This document shows, piece after piece, positions 2,440 to 63,358 of a stretch of 64,000 bases of DNA. The notes under the pieces are model-generated. The model did not search any database. It was not told the DNA's origin and saw only the letters and a program-made list of their open reading frames with translations. The DNA is taken from positions 62,001 to 126,000 of the IMG/VR virus record IMGVR_UViG_3300042881_003464. One strand, written 5' to 3'. Position 1 is the first letter of the stretch. Each line of letters starts with the position of its first letter. This DNA is from a virus. A program made the translations under genes and the position numbers.

Positions 2440-3485
2440 TATGTTTCCAGTTGCAACACAGTTAATGTAACTGTGAGTGTAGCAGGTGCACCACTTAGAT
2501 TCGTGATAGTAATGGGCACAGCGTTTGAAACCGGATTGTCATCATTGAAGCCAATGGCCGCTGGGCTAACAGTCACAGTGTTTGCACCATTGGTAATAAT
2601 TTCTGCTATGACGCCTGCACCTGGTTGAGGATCTGTATCCTGATCCCGTGTAGAGTCGGCTGTTCTAGCAGCAGTGCTGGTGTATACTCTTACCCAACTA
2701 GCCGCACTAGTGGAAATTTTATAAATTGCGTAGCCTTTGTAACCAGTTAGATTAGCGTTTACACTCACAGCATTGGATACTGGACCAACTGTGGTACTGA
2801 TATTGGCACGATTTCCTGCGCCACCTCCGCCACCTGTTACCACACCAGTTAGAAAAGCACCATTGCCTAGAATAAATGTGCCGCTGACATTGCCTGTGGC
2901 ATTTACATTGCCAACGTTGATATTGCCTGTGTGAGTGGCTGAACCAGAAGTTGAAATATTACCTGCTGTGATATTACCTGTCACAGTTGCACTGGTCAAA
3001 GCCGCATTGCCAGCTAATAAAGTTGTGGTTGAAACATATGGTGATGTCACTGCATTACCAGCATTGACATTGTTAACCACTAACTGCGAACCATCTAAAT
3101 AGGCACTGCCAACTGCTACTTGTGTTGTTGCATTAACCAAACTTGCATTGAGAGTGGTCACATTGGCCGCACCTGCTGCGGTGATATTACCACCCGACGT
3201 GATGTTGCCGCCTGCTGCAATGGTCTGGCTAGCGATCATGTGCGAACCTTGAACGTTGCCAGTTGCACTGATATTACCACCTGAACTTATTCTACCAGCA
3301 AAATTTTGTTGTCCAGTACCAGTTGCGTTGAGATTACCAGTGATGTTAACTGTGATACCATCAATGATATTGGTCACTGTGGTACCAACGCGATTCCATG
3401 CACCGGTGGTACTGTTCCATTGATAGGTTATATTTCCTACATTGGCCTGCTGACCATTAACGGGACTAACGGGAAAGAATGACAT
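2439..3485 (-). CDS. Repetitive tail-fibre-like protein
   Basis: A 348-residue protein rich in Gly, Asn, Thr, Ala and Ile, with many short GNIT/GNIS-type repeats over roughly residues 45-230, compatible with a beta-helical or triple-stranded shaft. FILGNGAFLTGV near residue 205 is a variant of the IGNGSLLTG motif in the neighbouring fibre genes. The C-terminal 120 residues are less repetitive and may form a folded tip. N-terminal MSFFPVSPVNGQQANVGNIT resembles an attachment segment. It overlaps both neighbours by TAATG, giving a three-gene coupled unit ending in the protease. A fibre or virion-surface role is inferred from sequence style and location. Confidence 0.7.
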   Translation of the reverse strand: MSFFPVSPVNGQQANVGNITYQWNSTTGAWNRVGTTVTNIIDGITVNITGNLNATGTGQQNFAGRISSGGNISATGNVQGSHMIASQTIAAGGNITSGGNITAAGAANVTTLNASLVNATTQVAVGSAYLDGSQLVVNNVNAGNAVTSPYVSTTTLLAGNAALTSATVTGNITAGNISTSGSATHTGNINVGNVNATGNVSGTFILGNGAFLTGVVTGGGGGAGNRANISTTVGPVSNAVSVNANLTGYKGYAIYKISTSAASWVRVYTSTAARTADSTRDQDTDPQPGAGVIAEIITNGANTVTVSPAAIGFNDDNPVSNAVPITITNLSGAPATLTVTLTVLQLET

Positions 3486-4855
3486 TAGAATCTCCCCACT
3501 GCAATTGTAATAGTCTGTATTGAATTATCAAGAATTGTCATCATGCTTTTACCCAGTACGCAGCCTGGTCTATATAAACTGTCATTTACTCTTTCAGCCA
3601 CCCCTGGTAAGTCACTTGTGGTCAGCAAAGTGCCTTTGTCCACCGGACCTCTCACTTTGCAGTTTACTTTGCCAGTGAGTGCAACTGCTACTCCGTCAAC
3701 ACCAGAGTTCATTAGGTAACTGGGCTTTTCACTGACTACTCCTGCCACAGCAGTGTCATGTGTACGAGAACTAATTGTAATTTCCTGTTCACCACCAAAA
3801 ATTACCACTGTACCCGGTTCATATTTGTTGTCTGATGTATAGTTTTCTGCTAAGTCAGCATAAAGTGCTGACGTTGAAGTAGCAAACACACGATTGAAAT
3901 AATTGCTGGCCGAACCAATGTTGCCTGTGGAATTAGAACCAAGGTTAGTGATGTTGCCTACTGCTAGACCTAGATTGGTTATCTGCGCCATGTTAACGTT
4001 GTTTACATTGGCAAAAATGTTACCGCTGGTAGATGGAATGGTAACAGTTGATAGACCATTGATAATAGTGCTAGGATTAGTACTGATGCCTGTTAGCAAA
4101 CTACCATTGCCAATGAAGTAAGTGCCTGCGATATTGGCCGCGGCATTTAGATTTGTTACTGTAATGGTATTGGCTGTAAATGATCCATTAACATCTCGTT
4201 GTACCACTGTGTTGGCCAGGGTGCTTGCTGATGCAGGAGGTGTAGCCACCCCACTGATATCCACCCACTGATCAGTATCACCATCATCTACATATTGATA
4301 CACAATACCGTTGACGGTGTTAAACCAAAAGTCACCAGCAGTGGGAGAACTTGGTGCTGTGCCCTGAGCATCCCATTTAACAGTTCCGCCGCTGACAAAT
4401 GGCACTCCATTGGCAAAATAGTAGTTGTCTGTTAAGATATTGCCGGTTGTAACATTACCTGGTAAAATAGCACCAGTGGTGGTCAACAGCATTACATTAG
4501 CAACACCGCCCACGTCCATTTGAATGTTGCCAGATAGATTGGGCAAATCAACTTTAGATGTACCGTTTTGAATACGATTGCCAGACGCATTACCAGTGGG
4601 AATGTTGGTAAGTCCTGATCCGTCACCAATAAAAACACCAGTGGTAACAAAGTTACCAACTGACGTAATAGAGTTACTGGTGATATTGTTTGCAGTGATG
4701 TTGGCAGTTGGGAAAGCAACAGTGCCCGTGGCAGTCAACCCTGAAGTGCGTATATTGCCTGCGACATTAACCGTGTTGGTTGTAATGTTGACGTTGTCCG
4801 TCGCTTGTATAGAGACAATATTATAGTCACCGTTGACACGTTTGTAAGTTGACAT
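3485..4855 (-). CDS. Tail-fibre-like protein with conserved C-terminal tip domain
   Basis: A 456-residue protein. The N-terminal 130 residues carry GNI/TANNIT repeats and VFIGDGSGLTNI; a second motif YFIGNGSLLTGI lies near residue 245. The last 150 residues begin with NIGSASNYFNRVFA, then ALYADLAENY, EPGTVV and FLMN-like blocks. The same C-terminal organisation is present in the distant gene at 53621-55003, so the two are paralogous at the tip. Translation starts at the ATG directly abutting the TAG stop of the gene upstream, with an AAGGAT ribosome site and a perfect TATAAATA box 17 bases upstream. A host-contact or fibre role is likely but not proven. Confidence 0.75.
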   Translation of the reverse strand: MSTYKRVNGDYNIVSIQATDNVNITTNTVNVAGNIRTSGLTATGTVAFPTANITANNITSNSITSVGNFVTTGVFIGDGSGLTNIPTGNASGNRIQNGTSKVDLPNLSGNIQMDVGGVANVMLLTTTGAILPGNVTTGNILTDNYYFANGVPFVSGGTVKWDAQGTAPSSPTAGDFWFNTVNGIVYQYVDDGDTDQWVDISGVATPPASASTLANTVVQRDVNGSFTANTITVTNLNAAANIAGTYFIGNGSLLTGISTNPSTIINGLSTVTIPSTSGNIFANVNNVNMAQITNLGLAVGNITNLGSNSTGNIGSASNYFNRVFATSTSALYADLAENYTSDNKYEPGTVVIFGGEQEITISSRTHDTAVAGVVSEKPSYLMNSGVDGVAVALTGKVNCKVRGPVDKGTLLTTSDLPGVAERVNDSLYRPGCVLGKSMMTILDNSIQTITIAVGRF

Positions 4856-5443
4856 CTAACAATCCTTTTGCTTATTTATACGAGCCAGAAACAGCGACAT
4901 TTCAAGGTGCTCAAGATTGCTCAAACGGTCTAATTCAGCGTGTTTCATTGTGGTTTCCCCGTATACCCTGGTCCAGCGCACAGTGGGAAAATCTGATATC
5001 ACTGTGGTTATCTGCTTGATCCAGTTGCCCGTGAATGTGGGAGGAGTTCCACGTGCTTTGTAGAATTCGGTACCTGCATAAACGTTGTTGAATTTGTTAT
5101 CCGTTGTTGGTCCAAGATCATACCCCAGCAAATAGATCTGCGTGTGTCCGTCAATAGCTGCTAGTGCAGCGGCCACTGGTCCTGAGCTGTTTCCGTAGTA
5201 TTTTTTGGGGATCTGCCTTGCTCCAGAATTTGGATAGCATCTACGAGTGTAGAATGTTTTACGCTGACTGTAGCCAGAATCTTGAATTCGTCCACTGATC
5301 GGAGCGTCAGTGGCCACCAGCACGTCTGGTTCGTAATCTTTGTAGAGTGCATTGCAGCCATAAATTGAGCCGTAGTGGTGTAACCAGGCAAGATCAAGTC
5401 CTTGTCTACTAACACCATTTGCCAGTGCAAAAGCTATAGTCAT
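4856..5443 (-). CDS. Conserved phage protein of unknown function (Rossmann/DUF115-like?)
   Basis: A 195-residue protein starting MTIAFALANGVSRQ. Conserved-looking blocks include YGCNALY, DVLVATD, YLLGYDLGP and TGNWIKQ. The pattern, with LLGYDLGP near residue 105, recalls nucleotide-binding or DUF115/MAF-like glycosylation-associated proteins, but I cannot assign a reaction. Its ribosome site GGGAGGA lies in the 3' arm of a terminator hairpin (5444-5478), so translation may be gated by RNA structure. The gene ends with TAG, immediately and in frame followed by the ATG of the next fibre gene; suppression of that amber codon would make a fused protein of about 650 residues. Confidence 0.6.
   Translation of the reverse strand: MTIAFALANGVSRQGLDLAWLHHYGSIYGCNALYKDYEPDVLVATDAPISGRIQDSGYSQRKTFYTRRCYPNSGARQIPKKYYGNSSGPVAAALAAIDGHTQIYLLGYDLGPTTDNKFNNVYAGTEFYKARGTPPTFTGNWIKQITTVISDFPTVRWTRVYGETTMKHAELDRLSNLEHLEMSLFLARINKQKDC
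4873..4880 (-). promoter_or_regulatory. Perfect T4-type late promoter box TATAAATA
   Basis: The minus strand reads CGTATAAATAAGC inside the 3' end of the 4856-5443 gene. It is identical to the T4 late consensus and lies 17 bases before the ATG of the fibre gene at 4855, giving room for a short leader with AAAAGGAT. Confidence 0.75.
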
Positions 5444-5497: not shown

Positions 5498-6244
5498 TTA
5501 GCTAGTCCACTTCTCAACTTGCCCTGGTATCACTGTGGTATTTGCAGTACCACTCTTGATCACAGTGCCTTCGTCAGTGAAGAAGTTTGATACATAACGC
5601 ACATCATTTACCACGCTGGAGTAACCGTAGTCGTTACCTCCAGTCCAATCCAACAGCCACTTGTTGGTTAGCTTGCTGATGTAGGTAATTGTTGAATCTC
5701 CTACTGAGAAGCCAATGGCCATGCTGCCGCCAGGAGGAGTTGCATCATTGTCTAAAACGCACACACCGACTTCTTGACAGGTGCCTGTGGTACCAGCGCC
5801 TGCGGCTGCTGTAACTAAGAAAATAGTGCCTACTGCGGCACCCACTGGTGCACCCATAGCTACCCAATTGGTGTCCCCAAGGCTAGCAATGCGCACACTG
5901 ACACCCACCACTGCGTTGGCAGGGTCAATAGCTGTGTTCGTGGCCACTAGAAATTTGTGAGCACCTTTTTGACGCAGGATAACACCATCATCTACACCTG
6001 TGTAGCTGTTGGCGATGTTTACAATACACTTGACCACAGGATTAGTAGCTGATGTGGCAGTGGTACGAAGTCCGCCAACCACGCCAAGATAATCGTTTGC
6101 ACTTAGAGTTGTTGGGTTGACATTATACTCTGGATCTGTCAGTGAGCCAAAGTTTGGAAAACCAACATCAATGCCTACTGCTGCACCAGGTGCACCAATA
6201 CCAGAATTAGTAGAATATTTTTGTATTTTGAGAGGACGCCCCAT
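5498..6244 (-). CDS. Virion structural protein (possible capsid decoration or tail-surface protein)
   Basis: A 248-residue protein beginning MGRPLKIQKYST, an opening I associate with virion proteins of marine T4-like phages. It is rich in Gly, Ala, Val and Thr, with no enzymatic motif, membrane segment or signal peptide. The gene stands alone: a late-type box at 6327-6334 and a strong terminator at 5444-5478 frame it, typical of an abundantly made structural protein. The start is supported by AAGGAGAAAAC upstream. Whether it decorates the head or sits on the tail cannot be told from sequence. Confidence 0.6.
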   Translation of the reverse strand: MGRPLKIQKYSTNSGIGAPGAAVGIDVGFPNFGSLTDPEYNVNPTTLSANDYLGVVGGLRTTATSATNPVVKCIVNIANSYTGVDDGVILRQKGAHKFLVATNTAIDPANAVVGVSVRIASLGDTNWVAMGAPVGAAVGTIFLVTAAAGAGTTGTCQEVGVCVLDNDATPPGGSMAIGFSVGDSTITYISKLTNKWLLDWTGGNDYGYSSVVNDVRYVSNFFTDEGTVIKSGTANTTVIPGQVEKWTS

Positions 6245-6326
6245 TTGTTTTCTCCTTAAAGAAGTCCGATGTGGGTTCTAGCCACTACGCGGTGGTTGCC
6301 GCATAAAACGCAGAGTGCGTTAATAG

Positions 6327-6349: not shown

Positions 6350-6378
6350 TTGACCTACTAGTTTAATTTTGGCATAAT
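6350..6378 (+). promoter_or_regulatory. Sigma70-like promoter for the tRNA unit
   Basis: TTGACC at 6350-6355 and CATAAT at 6373-6378 are separated by exactly 17 bases. A start about 7-8 bases downstream would coincide with the 5' end of the tRNA at 6387. This is the clearest host-type promoter I saw in the window, suggesting expression of the tRNA before the late programme. Confidence 0.65.
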
Positions 6379-6386
6379 TACGTTAT

Positions 6387-6460
6387 GCGCTGTGAGCCGG
6401 TGGACGGCAAGGAGATTCTAAACCTCCAATGAATGGGTTCGATTCCCATACGGCGCACCA
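6387..6460 (+). tRNA. tRNA-like gene, best-fit anticodon CTA (candidate amber suppressor)
   Basis: The 7-bp acceptor stem GCGCTGT/ACGGCGC (one G-T pair), discriminator A and encoded CCA are clear, as is the T arm ATGGG-TTCGATT-CCCAT with a 5-base variable loop. The anticodon arm pairs GGAG with CTCC. With a 7-base loop TTCTAAA closed by an A-C mismatch the anticodon is CTA (6418-6420), with A37 and A38. Reading TCT (Arg, 6417-6419) instead breaks most of the stem. Oddities: the D loop is only about 5 bases and position 8 is G. Together with the in-frame TAG in the gene at 6767 the amber reading is attractive, but charging and decoding are unproven. Confidence 0.72.
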
Positions 6461-6579
6461 GAATCATCGGCGGACCCGTAACCATATTCCGCCTCCGCTG
6501 ACGCGAAAACGGGATGGGCTGCGCTCACGGGGTTTGGTAGTTTCCTGACACAAAAATAACTACCCATTAGGAAACTGTT
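6461..6579 (+). other. GC-rich spacer with hairpins between tRNA and lipoprotein gene
   Basis: This 119-base stretch is richer in G and C than its surroundings. It holds an inverted repeat GGCGGA (6469-6474) / TCCGCC (6488-6493) and a second pair AGTTTCCT / AGGAAACT whose 3' arm contains the AGGA ribosome site of the next gene. There is no T-run, so it does not look like a terminator; it could aid tRNA 3' processing. No ORF is evident. Confidence 0.4.
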
Positions 6580-6765
6580 ATGCGCTACATTTTAATGGTT
6601 TTTGCTTTGATAGCAGCAGGTTGTTCTAACAAGTACGATGAGTGCATAGAACAACAAAAAGCAGAGTATAGAGAACGTAATCCTAAAGCAAGTTACGGAC
6701 AAGTTCAAAGCAGGCAACATGATTTTGAACTAATGTGCAGTAAATTTAAAACAAAAGGAAAATAA
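6580..6765 (+). CDS. Small predicted lipoprotein
   Basis: A 61-residue protein: Met-Arg-Tyr, a hydrophobic stretch, then LIAAGCSN, a plausible though weak lipobox with Cys at residue 15, followed by a charged hydrophilic domain of about 45 residues with two further Cys. The predicted mature form would be an inner- or outer-membrane-anchored lipoprotein. The start follows AGGA with 7 bases spacing. It sits between the tRNA and the amber-interrupted gene, one base before that gene's ATG, implying co-transcription. Phage lipoproteins of this size often act in superinfection exclusion or as outer spanin; there is no evidence here to choose. Confidence 0.6.
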   Translation: MRYILMVFALIAAGCSNKYDECIEQQKAEYRERNPKASYGQVQSRQHDFELMCSKFKTKGK

Positions 6766-6766
6766 A

Positions 6767-7333
6767 ATGTCATAGATTGAATACGCATGCAAGGATCTAG
6801 TGTTTCACTTCAACAAGAAACATCTAGAAGATAGTACCATCCCCATGTGGGTCGTAAAAACACACGGTGAAACTTTTTACGTAGACCACGTCACTGCTTC
6901 CATCCCATGGAGTACCAAAGAGACTCCGGACAATTACCATACCAAGGGCAGTATCAAATTCAAAGAGTGTTTGTTGGCCATCAACGATGCCAACGAAGCT
7001 GAAATCTCAGTCTTGACCTTGATTGACAAAATTAGATTGCGAAATCAAAAGCTTGGTATCACAAGAATAATTTTTACATACGGTGGAGCATTTCACAAAG
7101 CATTACAGCATAATGAATACAAACACTCGCCATTCAAAAACATCAGCGGTGGTTGTGGCACTAGCTTTGTGGTTTGCGATTTGTTAAAAAAGGAAGAAGC
7201 AACCTTTGCTGCGCTGAAATATAAAGATGGATTTAGAATCATGCAGGCCAATGAACGTTACTATCAGGCCTACGATGATCCAAGTCAAAAATGGATAGAC
7301 GAAGACGATTATCAAGACGATGACGAAGAATAA
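6767..7333 (+). CDS. Conserved phage protein interrupted by an in-frame amber codon at position 3
   Basis: With the good ribosome site AAGGA seven bases upstream, the natural start is ATG at 6767: ATG TCA TAG ATT GAA TAC, then an open frame to TAA at 7331-7333. The next residues (IEYACKDLVFHFNKKHLED) look like genuine coding sequence, and I recall related marine T4-like proteins with this N-terminus. Without suppression only Met-Ser would be made, unless translation starts at the rare ATT 6776 or the GTG 6800, which has a poorly spaced AAGGA. The amber-type tRNA lies 300 bases upstream in the same orientation. The roughly 188-residue product has an acidic tail (DEDDYQDDDEE) and no known domain; function unknown. 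Confidence 0.7.
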
Positions 7334-7340
7334 TCTGTCC

Positions 7341-7370
7341 AAGAAAAACCCCGCCGAAGCGGGGTTGATT
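7341..7370 (-). terminator. Intrinsic terminator between convergent genes
   Basis: AACCCCGC-CGAA-GCGGGGTT (7347-7366) is a perfect 8-bp stem. On the minus strand it has a TTCG tetraloop and runs into TTTTTC, placing it 24 bases past the major capsid gene's stop. In the plus direction it may also end the 6580-7333 unit, though the T-run is weak there. Confidence 0.88.
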
Positions 7371-59651: not shown

Positions 59652-61029
59652 AAGTGTTTTTCTAAACAACGCAGAAGAGATGCGCGACAAGCTAGGTCCT
59701 GCACGTTGCTACGCTAAATGGAAGCAGGTAAGTCTGCACCTGACCACGGGCATGACCAATAGTTGTTACCATCCGCCATTGCACGAAATAGATGTATCGC
59801 TTTTGGCTGACAATCCCAGTGCCTTGCACAACACGCCTTATAAAAAAACACAGCGCAAAATCATGCTGCGTAATGAGCGACCTAGTGAATGTCAGTACTG
59901 CTGGAACATGGAGGATCTTGGCGAACTTAGTGATCGTCACTATCGATCTGGCGAACCCTGGGCTGAGATTGATTTGGACGCATTGTCTGGCGACGAAGAT
60001 ATAATACCCAGTTACGTTGAAGTTAATTTTAGCAATGTTTGTAATCTAGCCTGTAGCTATTGCAGTCCACAGTTTAGTTCTACCTGGATGGAAGATGCGC
60101 AGAGGCATGGTGCCTTTCCTACTCGAATACCTCACAACGATCCTGCGCACTTCAAAGGACGCAAAAGACCTATACCTGTGCGAGAACACAATCCTTATCT
60201 AGATGCGTTTTGGCGGTGGTGGCCACAACTTTATCCACGTCTGCGTCATTTCCGTATGACTGGTGGTGAGCCAATACTAGACAAAAACACCTACAAGGTT
60301 TTTGATTACATACTGGCATCGCCACATCCTGAATTGCACATAGATGTCACTAGTAATTTCAGTGTGCCAACAGAGATTTTTCTAGGGTACCTAGAGTATA
60401 TAAAAAAGCTATGTGCGACCAAGATTGAACACTTCATGCAGTATGTTAGTATTGACACAGGAGACTGGACACAGGCAGCATACATCAGACGTGGCATGCA
60501 TTCAACTCAGTTCTTGGCCAATGTCAACAGTTACCTTGACAATGTTCAAGAAAAAAACAGCCTGACTTTTATTGTGACCTTGAACAACTTGAGTATAGTA
60601 GGCATAGATGCACTGCTAGATTATATCTTGGAACTCAGATCCAGATATTCAAAAACCTATCAAAAAGTTTGGTTTGATACTCCGGTGTTGCGTAATCCTC
60701 GTTGGCAGAGCTTACAGATATTACCTGAATCCTATCAACGCAGAATGCGTCAGGCCATTGACTTTATGCGTGATAACATGATGGAAGACAACAGTTTTGT
60801 GGGATTCAAAGACTATGAAGTACAGCGCATGGAGCGAGCCTTGGCCTGGATGAGTGAGCCACAAAACACAGATGAAATCACCATGGCTAGAGCTGACTTC
60901 TACAGATTTTTCAGCGAGTACAGCAGAAGGATGTTCAATGATTCAAATGCGTTTCAACAGGTATTTCCTGAAATGACCAGCTTTTGGTTAGAGTGTGAAT
61001 CACATGCCAACGCTCAATCTATCACTTGA
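59644..61029 (+). CDS. Radical SAM protein with N-terminal Cys-rich (twitch-like) region
   Basis: A 461-residue protein. The N-terminal region has Cys41 (SCYHPP) and SECQYCWNMED (Cys83, Cys86), consistent with an auxiliary iron-sulphur cluster placed before the core, as in N-terminal twitch radical SAM proteins. The core motif VCNLACSYC (Cys133, Cys137, Cys140) is followed by SPQFSSTW and by FRMTGGEPI near residue 205. The C-terminus ends FPEMTSFWLECESHANAQ. It is followed by a GT-B-like gene, an arrangement repeated downstream. Substrate unknown; modification of a peptide or sugar is possible. Confidence 0.78.
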   Translation: MSKSVFLNNAEEMRDKLGPARCYAKWKQVSLHLTTGMTNSCYHPPLHEIDVSLLADNPSALHNTPYKKTQRKIMLRNERPSECQYCWNMEDLGELSDRHYRSGEPWAEIDLDALSGDEDIIPSYVEVNFSNVCNLACSYCSPQFSSTWMEDAQRHGAFPTRIPHNDPAHFKGRKRPIPVREHNPYLDAFWRWWPQLYPRLRHFRMTGGEPILDKNTYKVFDYILASPHPELHIDVTSNFSVPTEIFLGYLEYIKKLCATKIEHFMQYVSIDTGDWTQAAYIRRGMHSTQFLANVNSYLDNVQEKNSLTFIVTLNNLSIVGIDALLDYILELRSRYSKTYQKVWFDTPVLRNPRWQSLQILPESYQRRMRQAIDFMRDNMMEDNSFVGFKDYEVQRMERALAWMSEPQNTDEITMARADFYRFFSEYSRRMFNDSNAFQQVFPEMTSFWLECESHANAQSIT

Positions 61030-62137
61030 CGAAGGCTGTGAGACCACAGAATTACTACGTCCTTGGGCAACAGAAACATTTCACGACTTTGCCACAGTGT
61101 TACCAACACCCAACCGGGTATATGTGTTTGGCCGCAAACAATTCGCCAAGTACAATAGATTGATCAGACAGTTGGTTGATTCCAACATTCGAGTGGTATA
61201 CAGTAATCCGTTTGAAGGCAGTGAAACTCTGCATTACATCATACGCAAACTGCGTTTTGAAGATCTACTGCTTTCAAAGAAGATACTTTTGATCAGCGGT
61301 GGTGACATACGTGTTGATTGTGATTATCTTAGACATGATCATTTTATTAGCAAAGTTCATCATTTTCCAGAAAACTTAGAAGTAATACAACACAGTGATC
61401 AGATCTATACCAAAATCAATAAGCCATATAAATTTTTGTTTTTGAACGGCAGGGCCAGGCCACATCGCAAGTGGATGGTTGAACAGTTAGACTATCTTGG
61501 ACTGCTTGATCAAGCACTATGGACTTGGTTGGATCCAAATTTCATTGATGATGGATCTTTGTGTCTAGAACAACATGGTATAGATTTGATGAACAGGCCA
61601 AGGTCTATCAAACTATTACCCAGTAAGTATGAAGTGCAACGTTATCAAAACAGAGTTGACATGCAGTTTAGTGATCAAAAGTATGCTATGCCTACTCTGT
61701 TCAATGAAGAATGGGGAGCCATTTACCTAAATCTGGATACCTATGTTGATACCTATTTTAGCATTGTAACCGAAACAGTACACGACAAGCCTTTTAGTTT
61801 TAGAACAGAAAAAATCTGGAAACCAATAGCCATTGGGCATCCTTGGGTATGTGTAGCCAATGCCGGATTCAATCGTGATCTTCGAAACATGGGATTTAGA
61901 ACCTTTCATGGCATTATAGATGAAAGTTTTGACAACATTGAAGATAATCATGCAAGACTTCGAGGAGTGATCAATGTTATAATAGATATCTGTAAATCAC
62001 CGCGTGAATTCCTCGAAGCTGCTAGAGACATCTGTAAATATAATCAAGATCACATGATACACCTTAGGGAACAGATCAACAAAGACTTTCCTGATAAGTT
62101 TTTCAAATTACTAAACAACAATCAATGGATGATTTAG
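61004..62137 (+). CDS. GT-B-like protein, first of two paralogues
   Basis: A 377-residue protein; ATG 61004 (MPTLNLSLDEG) is chosen over GTG 60995 because it aligns with the paralogue's start. Landmarks are VYVFGRKQF, LLISGGDI, KPYKFLFLNGRARPHRKWM, DTYFSIVTETVHDKPFSFRT and EKIWKPIAIGHPWVCVAN. The EKIxKPIxxGxP block is typical of GT-B or exostosin/fucosyltransferase C-terminal domains that bind the nucleotide sugar. It ends with TAG (62135-62137), within an in-frame open stretch of 21 codons reaching the paralogue's ATG. Confidence 0.68.
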   Translation: MPTLNLSLDEGCETTELLRPWATETFHDFATVLPTPNRVYVFGRKQFAKYNRLIRQLVDSNIRVVYSNPFEGSETLHYIIRKLRFEDLLLSKKILLISGGDIRVDCDYLRHDHFISKVHHFPENLEVIQHSDQIYTKINKPYKFLFLNGRARPHRKWMVEQLDYLGLLDQALWTWLDPNFIDDGSLCLEQHGIDLMNRPRSIKLLPSKYEVQRYQNRVDMQFSDQKYAMPTLFNEEWGAIYLNLDTYVDTYFSIVTETVHDKPFSFRTEKIWKPIAIGHPWVCVANAGFNRDLRNMGFRTFHGIIDESFDNIEDNHARLRGVINVIIDICKSPREFLEAARDICKYNQDHMIHLREQINKDFPDKFFKLLNNNQWMI

Positions 62138-62204
62138 AATTCAAACCGTGAATACGAATCCAGAGATGATGTTCTGGCAGGAATACAAAAGGCACACCAA
62201 ATGA
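62125..62204 (+). pseudogene. Remnant of an internally deleted radical SAM gene
   Basis: ATG GAT GAT TTA GAA TTC AAA CCG TGA encodes MDDLEFKP, matching the start MNDLEFK of the radical SAM gene at 63355. From 62148 a shifted frame encodes VNTNPEMMFWQEYKRHTK and TGA, resembling the radical SAM C-terminus FPEMTSFWLECESH at about 60970-61005. Only the first 8 and last 17 or so codons remain, with a frameshifted junction near 62146-62150. Confidence 0.7.
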
Positions 62205-63358
62205 TTGGTAGAAAAAAACTATTTGTTGATATTTACTCAGAGATTACAGATTTGATCAAAGAGTATACTGATGGAACATTCTGGGATTTTGGCAAAGAGA
62301 CACTGATTGAAAATGCGATCTATGTACTTGGGCGAGCACAGACAAATCATAACATTGACAAAGTTAGAGAAACAATTGAAAGCGGTAAGTCCTTTATCAT
62401 AGTCAGTAATCCCACTGAAGGCGCAGATACACTTAAATGGCAAGTCACTGAGTTGGGGCTGAAAGAATACAATGTTCAAGGTCGGATGCTGTTAATAGGT
62501 GGCGGCGATATAGAATCGCAATTTAATCATTTGCAATATGAAAGTTTTTTGCCTCAAATTTTTGACGTGCCAAAAAATAAAAATGTGTACGAGTACACCG
62601 ATGACATTTACAATACAACAGACAAACCTTATAAATTTTTGTTTTTGAATGGACGGAGTAGACCTCATAGAAAATATTTGTTGCAAAGTTTTAAATTATC
62701 CGGGCTGTTGGATCAAAGCTTGTGGACTAACTTGGATACATTCGCAGGGAGAACACAAGACCTTAAACTTATTCATAATGGAGTAGATTTAGTAGCAGAA
62801 ACAATACCAGTTCAATTGCTACCAGAGCAATATGAAGTTGACAGGTATCGTAAAAATTTAAAATCTGATCTAGTACCTGGTTTTGTAAAAGATCAACTTT
62901 TTGATTTTAACAACAAATTAGAGTGGGGCGAGATTTATATAGAGCCTAAGCCTTATATTGATACTTACTTTAGTCTGGTAACTGAAACTGTGTTTAGCTA
63001 TCCATATAGTTTTAGAACTGAAAAAATTTGGAAACCAATTGCCATTGGGCACCCATGGATAGCGGTCGCCAATGTTGGTTATTACAGAGATATGCGTAGC
63101 TTGGGTTTTCGCACATTTGATCATATCATTGATGAAACATTTGACACTATTGACAATGACATGGATCGAATCACACGAATAAGAGATATTGTTGTAGATC
63201 TTTGCAAGAGTACAGCGAATCTCAAAGACTTTTTAGCAGCAGCAAGACCTGTTTGCGAGTATAATCAAAAACACCTATGGAACATGCGAGAAAAAGTTCG
63301 ACAAGAGTTTCCTGAAAGATTTATACAGTTTATAAGAGACAACAAACTGACAAGATGA
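62201..63358 (+). CDS. GT-B-like protein, second paralogue
   Basis: A 385-residue protein aligned along its length with the gene at 61004-62137: IYVLGRAQ, MLLIGGGDI, KPYKFLFLNGRSRPHRKYLL, DTYFSLVTETVFSYPYSFRT and EKIWKPIAIGHPWIAVAN. The two differ enough to have diverged long ago, and codon use here is visibly more AT-rich than in the first copy, suggesting separate histories. The ATG overlaps the TGA of the radical SAM remnant (ATGA), showing that the gene's original upstream partner was that radical SAM gene. Function as glycosyltransferase inferred. Confidence 0.68.
   Translation: MIGRKKLFVDIYSEITDLIKEYTDGTFWDFGKETLIENAIYVLGRAQTNHNIDKVRETIESGKSFIIVSNPTEGADTLKWQVTELGLKEYNVQGRMLLIGGGDIESQFNHLQYESFLPQIFDVPKNKNVYEYTDDIYNTTDKPYKFLFLNGRSRPHRKYLLQSFKLSGLLDQSLWTNLDTFAGRTQDLKLIHNGVDLVAETIPVQLLPEQYEVDRYRKNLKSDLVPGFVKDQLFDFNNKLEWGEIYIEPKPYIDTYFSLVTETVFSYPYSFRTEKIWKPIAIGHPWIAVANVGYYRDMRSLGFRTFDHIIDETFDTIDNDMDRITRIRDIVVDLCKSTANLKDFLAAARPVCEYNQKHLWNMREKVRQEFPERFIQFIRDNKLTR

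Follow-up and report, generated by a model that had tools for sequence, protein, structure and literature searches.

The gene that starts at position 6767 of the window, the 64-kb stretch analysed here out of a 171.8-kb virus record (G000), is very probably gated by a stop codon: its third codon, an in-frame UAG, would be read by a CUA suppressor tRNA made by the same phage, as one case of a tRNA-dependent gate set on translation-linked genes of phages that use the standard code. Readthrough in infected cells, the amino acid that is inserted and the purpose of the setup are what we infer from this comparative picture. The record is that of a T4-type phage, as the gene for the Gp23 major capsid protein is found, on the minus strand, just downstream of a plus-strand island which sits between two minus-strand genes and comprises the CUA tRNA (6387–6460), a lipoprotein-like ORF of 61 residues (6580–6765) and the gated gene. 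This ORF, which the first-pass annotation had placed between the tRNA and its target as a lipoprotein gene, is indeed there, and has no match in PHROG or Pfam. The same annotation gave the tRNA a sigma70-like promoter of its own, and a consensus scan does recover a box TTGACC-17-CATAAT with an extended TG just upstream (6350–6378, plus strand), but promoter-like sites in the tRNA region are not above chance (2, against a shuffle mean of 2.2). The gated gene reads AAAGGAAAATAAA-ATG-TCA-TAG-ATT-GAA, with its Shine–Dalgarno region (AAAGGA) at 6754–6766, a two-codon leader, ATG TCA, at 6767–6772 and the gate itself, TAG, at 6773–6775. The good ribosome site and the long frame behind the stop had been rightly noticed from the outset, 185 sense codons being open before a TAA at 7331–7333. 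A conserved N-terminal domain of about 79 residues, the FHFN domain (6776–7012), is supported by comparison with relatives and by the AlphaFold model of its stand-alone form; the C-terminal part and the stop codon follow (7013–7333), the full-length model having a pLDDT of 80.9. After the gene, a GC-rich stem-loop, AACCCCGC(CGAA)GCGGGGTT (7347–7366), is terminator-like on the minus strand.

Conservation of the stop carries much of the argument. A first scan of IMG/VR with the gated gene gave 235 relatives, of which the 80 most similar were kept; TAG is in frame in all 79 of these that reach the site, directly before a conserved IEYA-like stretch, and the window copy makes 80. A separate profile scan recovered nearly the same 80 loci, and two new ones (L137, L157) joined the later counts. 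A second scan took as its seed an ORF that has no annotation in Rhizobium phage RHph_I1_18 (MSEFM-TAG-NESCREVIFHFN...), and TAG is present in 46 of its 60 new loci. Ten of the 14 loci without it belong to a clade in which the TAG lies on pth2, just upstream; the other four are L196, which lost the TAG, L225, a fusion form, L226, devoid of the N-terminus, and L227, apparently broken. From 126 genes already seen to have the TAG (the window copy, 79, 44 and the two profile-scan loci; L218 and L222, with TAG present and the gene cut by the contig end, were excluded), 83 representatives below 95% nucleotide identity were drawn. Their leader before the TAG is always in frame and varies from one to nine codons (two in 57 of them), and an SD-like motif, loosely defined, precedes the ATG in 82. 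A stop kept as one codon type is thus followed on its 3′ side by coding constraint: between the TAG and the FHFN motif, pairwise single-base differences are synonymous in 6620 cases and nonsynonymous in 2496, which points to translation of this stretch, in line with the original impression that the residues after the TAG are coding. The terminator of the genes themselves is TAA in 60 cases and TGA in 23; TAG is absent in this role, with P = 1e-5 at the genome's rate of 20/154 if phylogeny is ignored. A start at the GTG at 6800 was rejected, GTG being found there in just 38 of the 83; it is not a start common to the relatives. Conversion of a sense codon by a read error, which had been named as a way for the idea to fail, is unlikely, since independent contigs have the same TAG.

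The tRNA at 6387–6460 (plus strand) was described beforehand as having the anticodon CTA, and so it appears: ARAGORN calls cta, the Rfam tRNA model RF00005 gives 35.2 bits, its gathering score being 29, and the minimum free energy fold is a cloverleaf (z = -2.63) in which the D loop is short and A31 faces C39 as a mismatch. Neither ARAGORN nor the Rfam model offers a sense anticodon with a better fold. The anticodon loop, UUCUAAA, has U33 followed by CUA, and the acceptor end combines A73 with G1:C72, C2:G71 and G3:C70, CCA being encoded. A shift to an Arg UCU anticodon was rejected, as it would leave a one-sided bulge; it is also contradicted by the loop (C/U)UCUAAA in 57 of the 60 CCA-bearing CUA tRNAs compared. 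In these 60 the acceptor ends are nearly constant while the rest of the molecule varies (G1:C72 in 60, C2:G71 in 59, G3:C70 and A73 in 57 each), which suggests that one conserved enzyme charges them. Several relatives' CUA tRNAs have odd D arms, probably the reason why ARAGORN misses some of them. In GenBank, ARAGORN-CUA tRNAs are annotated otherwise in two phages, as tRNA-Phe in Arash (L314, 3816–3890) and as tRNA-Arg in Phabba (L320, 1971–2041). In Sinorhizobium phage Phosso (L083), the CUA tRNA (379–454) lies near a 250-residue stand-alone class II synthetase catalytic domain (786–1538) whose best PDB matches are glycyl-tRNA synthetases; this could be a phage-encoded charging enzyme for the suppressor, and a synthetase of this type has no match in G000.

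Gate and tRNA occur together. A CUA tRNA was found for 73 of the 83 representatives, in the fetched locus for 70 and elsewhere in the record for three (L051, L169, L192). ARAGORN alone places one at the locus of 61, and a stem-based search added 11, two of them doubtful (L171, where the loop reads GUC, and L176). For L075 only the 3′ part of the tRNA is present, cut by the contig end, and for seven representatives (L043, L062, L070, L170, L183, L188, L193) none was found, three of them searched over entire records of 28–100 kb which are probably partial. Distances from tRNA to TAG are rough, the TAG position having been set to a default for second-scan loci; in RHph_I1_18, tRNA and gated gene are 11 bp apart. 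A scan in the other direction, seeded with the exact pattern of the tRNA, gave 36 contigs: the gene is present in 24 (in the fetched stretch for 22, elsewhere in the record for two), always with its TAG, while 12 contigs (5–103 kb) have the tRNA without a gated gene.

The gate is not confined to one gene. In the clade where the FHFN gene has no TAG, the preceding ORF reads M, one or two codons, then TAG (M-K-N-M-TAG or M-TAG in L224), and it follows a CUA tRNA in nine loci out of ten, L224 having none in its 7-kb stretch. This ORF encodes a Pth2 peptidyl-tRNA hydrolase: three clade members tested are above the cut-off of PF01981, and all five pth2 proteins tested reach 24.9–60.6 bits against a cut-off of 23; NCBIfam equivalog cut-offs were not reached by the one pth2 protein tested. 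Where read, the 3′ end of pth2 overlaps the FHFN-domain gene. A scan with pth2 gave 15 Bacteroidota-type loci that extend to the start of the gene, and in every one the TAG is present, with a CUA tRNA just upstream. The host of this clade would belong to the Bacteroidota, to judge from the Bacteroidota-like upstream regions; the CUA tRNAs of these loci have no encoded CCA.

Annotated phages tell the same story. In 20 annotated records, hand-picked among the scan matches rather than taken at random, the start of pth2 has TAG in 17, TGA in one and neither in two, and 15 of the 17 have a CUA tRNA according to ARAGORN. The TAG-gated genes include those of Sinorhizobium phage Phosso (MKY-TAG-VEEKLRV...), Erwinia pEa_SNUABM_12, Salmonella phage Arash, Tenacibaculum pT24, Mycobacterium Cane17, Stenotrophomonas RAS14, Acinetobacter ME3, XbC2, GAP32, ET08, Grungle and Phabba, together with four huge uncultured phages, among them the 735-kb LR756501. 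In XacN1 the TAG gate is on a fusion gene in which an HD-like domain (so labelled by inspection) precedes the PTH2 domain, the CUA tRNAs of this phage being known from a pattern match and from its paper, outside the 15 of ARAGORN; a scan of viral contigs with this HD-PTH2 protein gave no relatives. In LR745206 a TAG-gated pth2 has no CUA tRNA established. Nine relatives of the GAP32 pth2 were met in IMG/VR: eight have the TAG and a CUA tRNA (seven by ARAGORN, one by eye, with C33), and the ninth has neither an in-frame TAG nor, by pattern, a CUA tRNA. The gene is ungated in Lak-C1 and Aeromonas avDM6; the strict-pattern match of avDM6 is an Arg tRNA, and among further CUA pattern matches in the two phages some were checked by ARAGORN. 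Among Bacteroidota-type phages, among huge phages and in named isolates, the gated pth2 mostly escapes annotation; in the records read, the stop cuts off the first codons of pth2 and of the FHFN gene, which explains why both are overlooked or wrongly annotated.

Further in-frame stops were met in this material. In the 735-kb phage, pth2 (L311, 2986–3369) has in-frame TAGs at codons 3 and 37, with two CUA tRNAs 2 kb downstream. In SNUABM_12, XbC2 and GAP32 (L313, L326, L327), an HD-like gene placed after pth2 contains an internal in-frame TAG at the same place (LISELDTG-TAG-GDP), and in LR745206 the HD-like gene itself begins M-N-T-TAG (L318, ATG at 3498). One GAP32-type pth2 (L354, about 4960–5010), by contrast, has no TAG in its own frame: the SD-ATG is followed by nine further codons and TAG, and right after TAG-G the gene resumes in the +1 frame. 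An indel would explain this, as would an RF2-like +1 frameshift at UAG; a pattern search of the record gave no CUA tRNA.

A different stop codon is seen in Agrobacterium phage Atu_ph07, where pth2 reads ATG-ATT-GGC-GAA-CAC-TTT-TGA-ATT-AAT... behind AGAAAGG (MIGEHF-TGA-INYEEL...). The sections seen of the paper on this phage report one suppressor tRNA, with anticodon UCA (PMC6102473), and a tRNA whose anticodon is TCA is indeed called by ARAGORN in the record. From the sequences, gate codon and suppressor anticodon have switched together in this single case, a joint change that is not expected of a mini-ORF or of a stop present by chance. Suppressor and gate thus share a genome and covary in codon and anticodon, the opal pair included, as expected of a cognate suppressor. 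The idea of a phage amber suppressor with a dedicated adjacent target, put forward from the window alone, is strongly supported by conservation, by linkage with the tRNA and by this co-switch; what had been taken for a local pair does exist, but it is widespread, with pth2 as the target in many phages.

The protein of the window is itself outside the Pth2 family, to which the gated gene belongs in the jumbo and Bacteroidota-type phages examined; it is part of the FHFN-domain family, found beside pth2, and has no match in Pfam (PF01981 included), PHROG or NCBIfam. The other FHFN proteins tested likewise gave nothing in these three collections. The domain also exists as a stand-alone gene of 76–88 codons in other phages, and as the C-terminal domain of some jumbo-phage proteins. 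In a Paenibacillus contig (L167), the FHFN gene, without a stop, is located in a tRNA array, between tRNA-Cys and tRNA-Met. The AlphaFold model of the stand-alone form has a pLDDT of 92.5. Foldseek finds no match to it or to the full-length model in the PDB at E <= 0.001, a profile search of PDB sequences gives nothing below E 0.028, and in BFVD four matches have E <= 0.001, two of them labelled as DUF2061 proteins, one uncharacterised at 59% identity and one nameless. The genomic company of the FHFN genes, with tRNAs and Pth2 as neighbours, suggests a role in the handling of tRNA or peptidyl-tRNA.

We may then picture the gate as follows. Ribosomes would initiate at the ATG behind its good ribosome site and, a few codons on, come to the UAG. 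Should release factor 1 win there, a dipeptide would be released and the gated gene would be off; should the phage CUA tRNA, encoded 0.3 kb upstream, win, the full-length protein of 188 residues would be made. With the same gate carried by pth2, a small set of genes linked to tRNA and translation would be controlled in this way. As to purpose, we favour coupling of rescue or recycling to suppression and to tRNA supply: the output of gated protein would track the strength of UAG suppression, so that a peptidyl-tRNA or ribosome-rescue function would be made only once the suppressor tRNA had been made, processed and charged. Timing, the purpose first read from the window, is one of several candidates and the main alternative, with the same decoding mechanism, the suppressor tRNA delaying the gated product to mid or late infection. 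It fits with the position of the CUA tRNA in G000, alone with its promoter-like box and away from the 28 further tRNAs clustered near one record end; yet a tRNA and a gene as close as those of RHph_I1_18 would give little delay if co-transcribed, and we regard timing as possible but rather doubtful. Coupling can be extended, tentatively and as an idea a little short of probable, to a general principle in which one suppressor tRNA licenses one early stop before a gene of translation quality control (FHFN, Pth2 or HD-Pth2). Were this principle true, the gate would report on tRNA production, charging and competition with release factor, and set its output accordingly. Against gating as such stands L196, where the gate was lost (SD-ATG-ATC-GAA...) while CUA tRNAs were kept in the record: here the gate is dispensable. 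The gated genes for which no CUA tRNA was found or established (the seven representatives, L224, LR745206) and the CUA tRNAs with no gated gene (the 12 contigs, DLP5) weigh on the same side, as do the ordinary UAG stops of G000 and the GTG behind the TAG in four mycobacteriophages, both described below.

Regulation by two-codon minigenes is known, and peptidyl-tRNA hydrolase acts on the peptidyl-tRNAs that they give, so that ATG-NNN-TAG might be a regulatory mini-ORF, with re-initiation at the stop, or beyond it, as the real start of the protein. Four mycobacteriophages (Cane17, ET08, Grungle and Phabba) could be understood in this way: TAG is codon 2, GTG comes directly after it, all their annotated CDS start there, and ordinary initiation at this GTG is possible in the four. 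Phage DLP5, where a scan found no long gated ORF despite the presence of a CUA tRNA, has an SD-ATG-AAG-TAG-GTC... mini-ORF (L329, 1838) with five codons after the TAG and no long frame behind, just upstream of the gene that precedes the tRNA. The 83 representatives read otherwise, the codon after the TAG being ATT (64), ATC (7), ATA (2), ACT (4), AAA (2) or GTN (4), and never ATG, GTG or TTG. No start-like codon is conserved before HFN, the best being the GTG of 38 representatives, and the first conserved ATG (82/83, at position +13) would cost the domain its first strand and helix. Furthermore, re-initiation could make do with TAA or TGA as well as with TAG, and it calls for no suppressor tRNA matched to the stop, such as the UCA tRNA that accompanies TGA; we consider it improbable. 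The decoded gate may still borrow from minigenes: its two-codon leaders resemble those known minigenes whose drop-off products are Pth substrates, and one may speculate that, through drop-off of the leader as peptidyl-tRNA, the gate would respond to the very substrate on which its product acts.

It is less probable still that the TAG codes for some particular amino acid, or an unusual one, required for function, in the manner of pyrrolysine, with no gating involved. The codon is nearly invariant and the CUA tRNA of Phosso adjoins its GlyRS-like domain, as such a role would have it; ARAGORN labels these CUA tRNAs tRNA-Pyl, and in pyrrolysine insertion, too, UAG is read in few genes. Yet the TAG lies outside any aligned core, behind leaders that vary in length and sequence, and is no functional residue of the fold; the gate moves among genes (FHFN, pth2, HD-PTH2) and can be TGA; natural members do without TAG (L196, L167, the FHFN genes of Phosso and Atu_ph07); and G000 has no synthetase like that of Phosso. 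Pyrrolysine proper was rejected, the hallmarks of tRNA-Pyl being absent from the window tRNA, in which there are two linker bases, the variable region is 5 bases long and a TTC loop is present. That TAG might be a sense codon everywhere, the gate being one occurrence among many in recoded (code 15) phages, is hardly credible and was rejected, for G000 uses UAG as an ordinary stop, terminating 20 of its 154 non-overlapping ORFs of at least 90 residues (a count over about 170 of the 172 kb, record bases 60001–62000 left out), and has a single gated ORF, and in a 6.3-kb stretch of LR756500 in-frame TAG occurs only in pth2 (codon 3) and in a spurious ORF that overlaps it in another frame. The pth2 gene of Lak-C1, a phage with TAG recoded globally, is ungated. 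The uniqueness of the gate in G000 was seen by scanning all pieces of the 171.8 kb on both strands, piece joints aside: only one arrangement SD-ATG, up to eight further codons, stop and at least 100 open codons is present, whatever the stop codon. Ordinary UAG stops have no excess of back-up second stops behind them (p = 0.35), and since they are not better backed up there is no genome-wide sign of strong suppression in G000.

The gate can be set against systems already described. Code 15 phages also carry CUA tRNAs, according to the parts consulted of PMC13037316 and PMC10879173, and in the crAss-like and Lak phages the phage tRNA likewise reads UAG in a host on the standard code; here, in contrast, UAG stays an ordinary stop and would be read at a single codon near the start of one or two genes linked to tRNA or translation. 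The orphan suppressor tRNAs of XacN1, Summit/DLP5, RsoM2USA and the Bxz1 type are CUA tRNAs of the same kind. The XacN1 authors state, in the excerpts available, that the genes targeted by their CUA tRNAs could not be identified (PMC5852040), and the portion seen of the Summit paper calls the purpose of its amber suppressor unknown (PMC9022506). The RsoM2USA paper, in the pages seen, gives a CUA suppressor without a target gene (PMC8504454), and extracts of a study of mycobacteriophage tRNA arrays mention a 'pyrrolysine' tRNA and a PTH2 gene, unlinked (PMC5966550). A target is now visible in XacN1, the gated HD-PTH2, whereas none was found for DLP5, a relative of Summit. In literature titles and abstracts, subscription papers and preprints being outside the scope, no description of a TAG-gated pth2 or FHFN gene was met.

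Another parallel is prfB, the gene of RF2, controlled by an autoregulatory frameshift at an early UGA. There, as here, an early in-frame stop makes the synthesis of a translation factor depend on the decoding of that very stop; here, by contrast, a cognate tRNA would decode the stop with no shift of frame, and the gene codes for something other than a release factor. Within the dedicated-pair principle, the gate might be the sense-decoding counterpart of the RF2 frameshift loop, an analogy we hold as loosely as the principle itself. Suppressor tRNAs of many standard-code phages, cultivable isolates included, are given a concrete and conserved target by these gated genes. The gate also indicates that UAG may be made readable gene by gene without recoding the genome. 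The circuit is compact and portable, and a natural paired switch from UAG/CUA to UGA/UCA is on hand.

Several minor observations concern the surroundings. Directly after the tRNA, folding predicts a strong hairpin (6461–6545); theta ribozymes often follow suppressor tRNAs of gut phages, according to the sections seen of PMC10879173, and this stretch has no ribozyme match in Rfam. Neither pth2 nor the HD domain was detected in G000 by tblastn. In two places of the window, same-frame neighbours are separated by a TAG stop (4856–5443 with 3485–4855, minus strand, and 60995–62137 with 62201–63358, plus strand); suppression would fuse both pairs, and the arrangement may be due to chance. Upstream of the island, on the minus strand, a freshwater-2 RNA (RF02980, 77.8 bits) is recognized at 6242–6322, directly upstream of the gene at 5498–6244.
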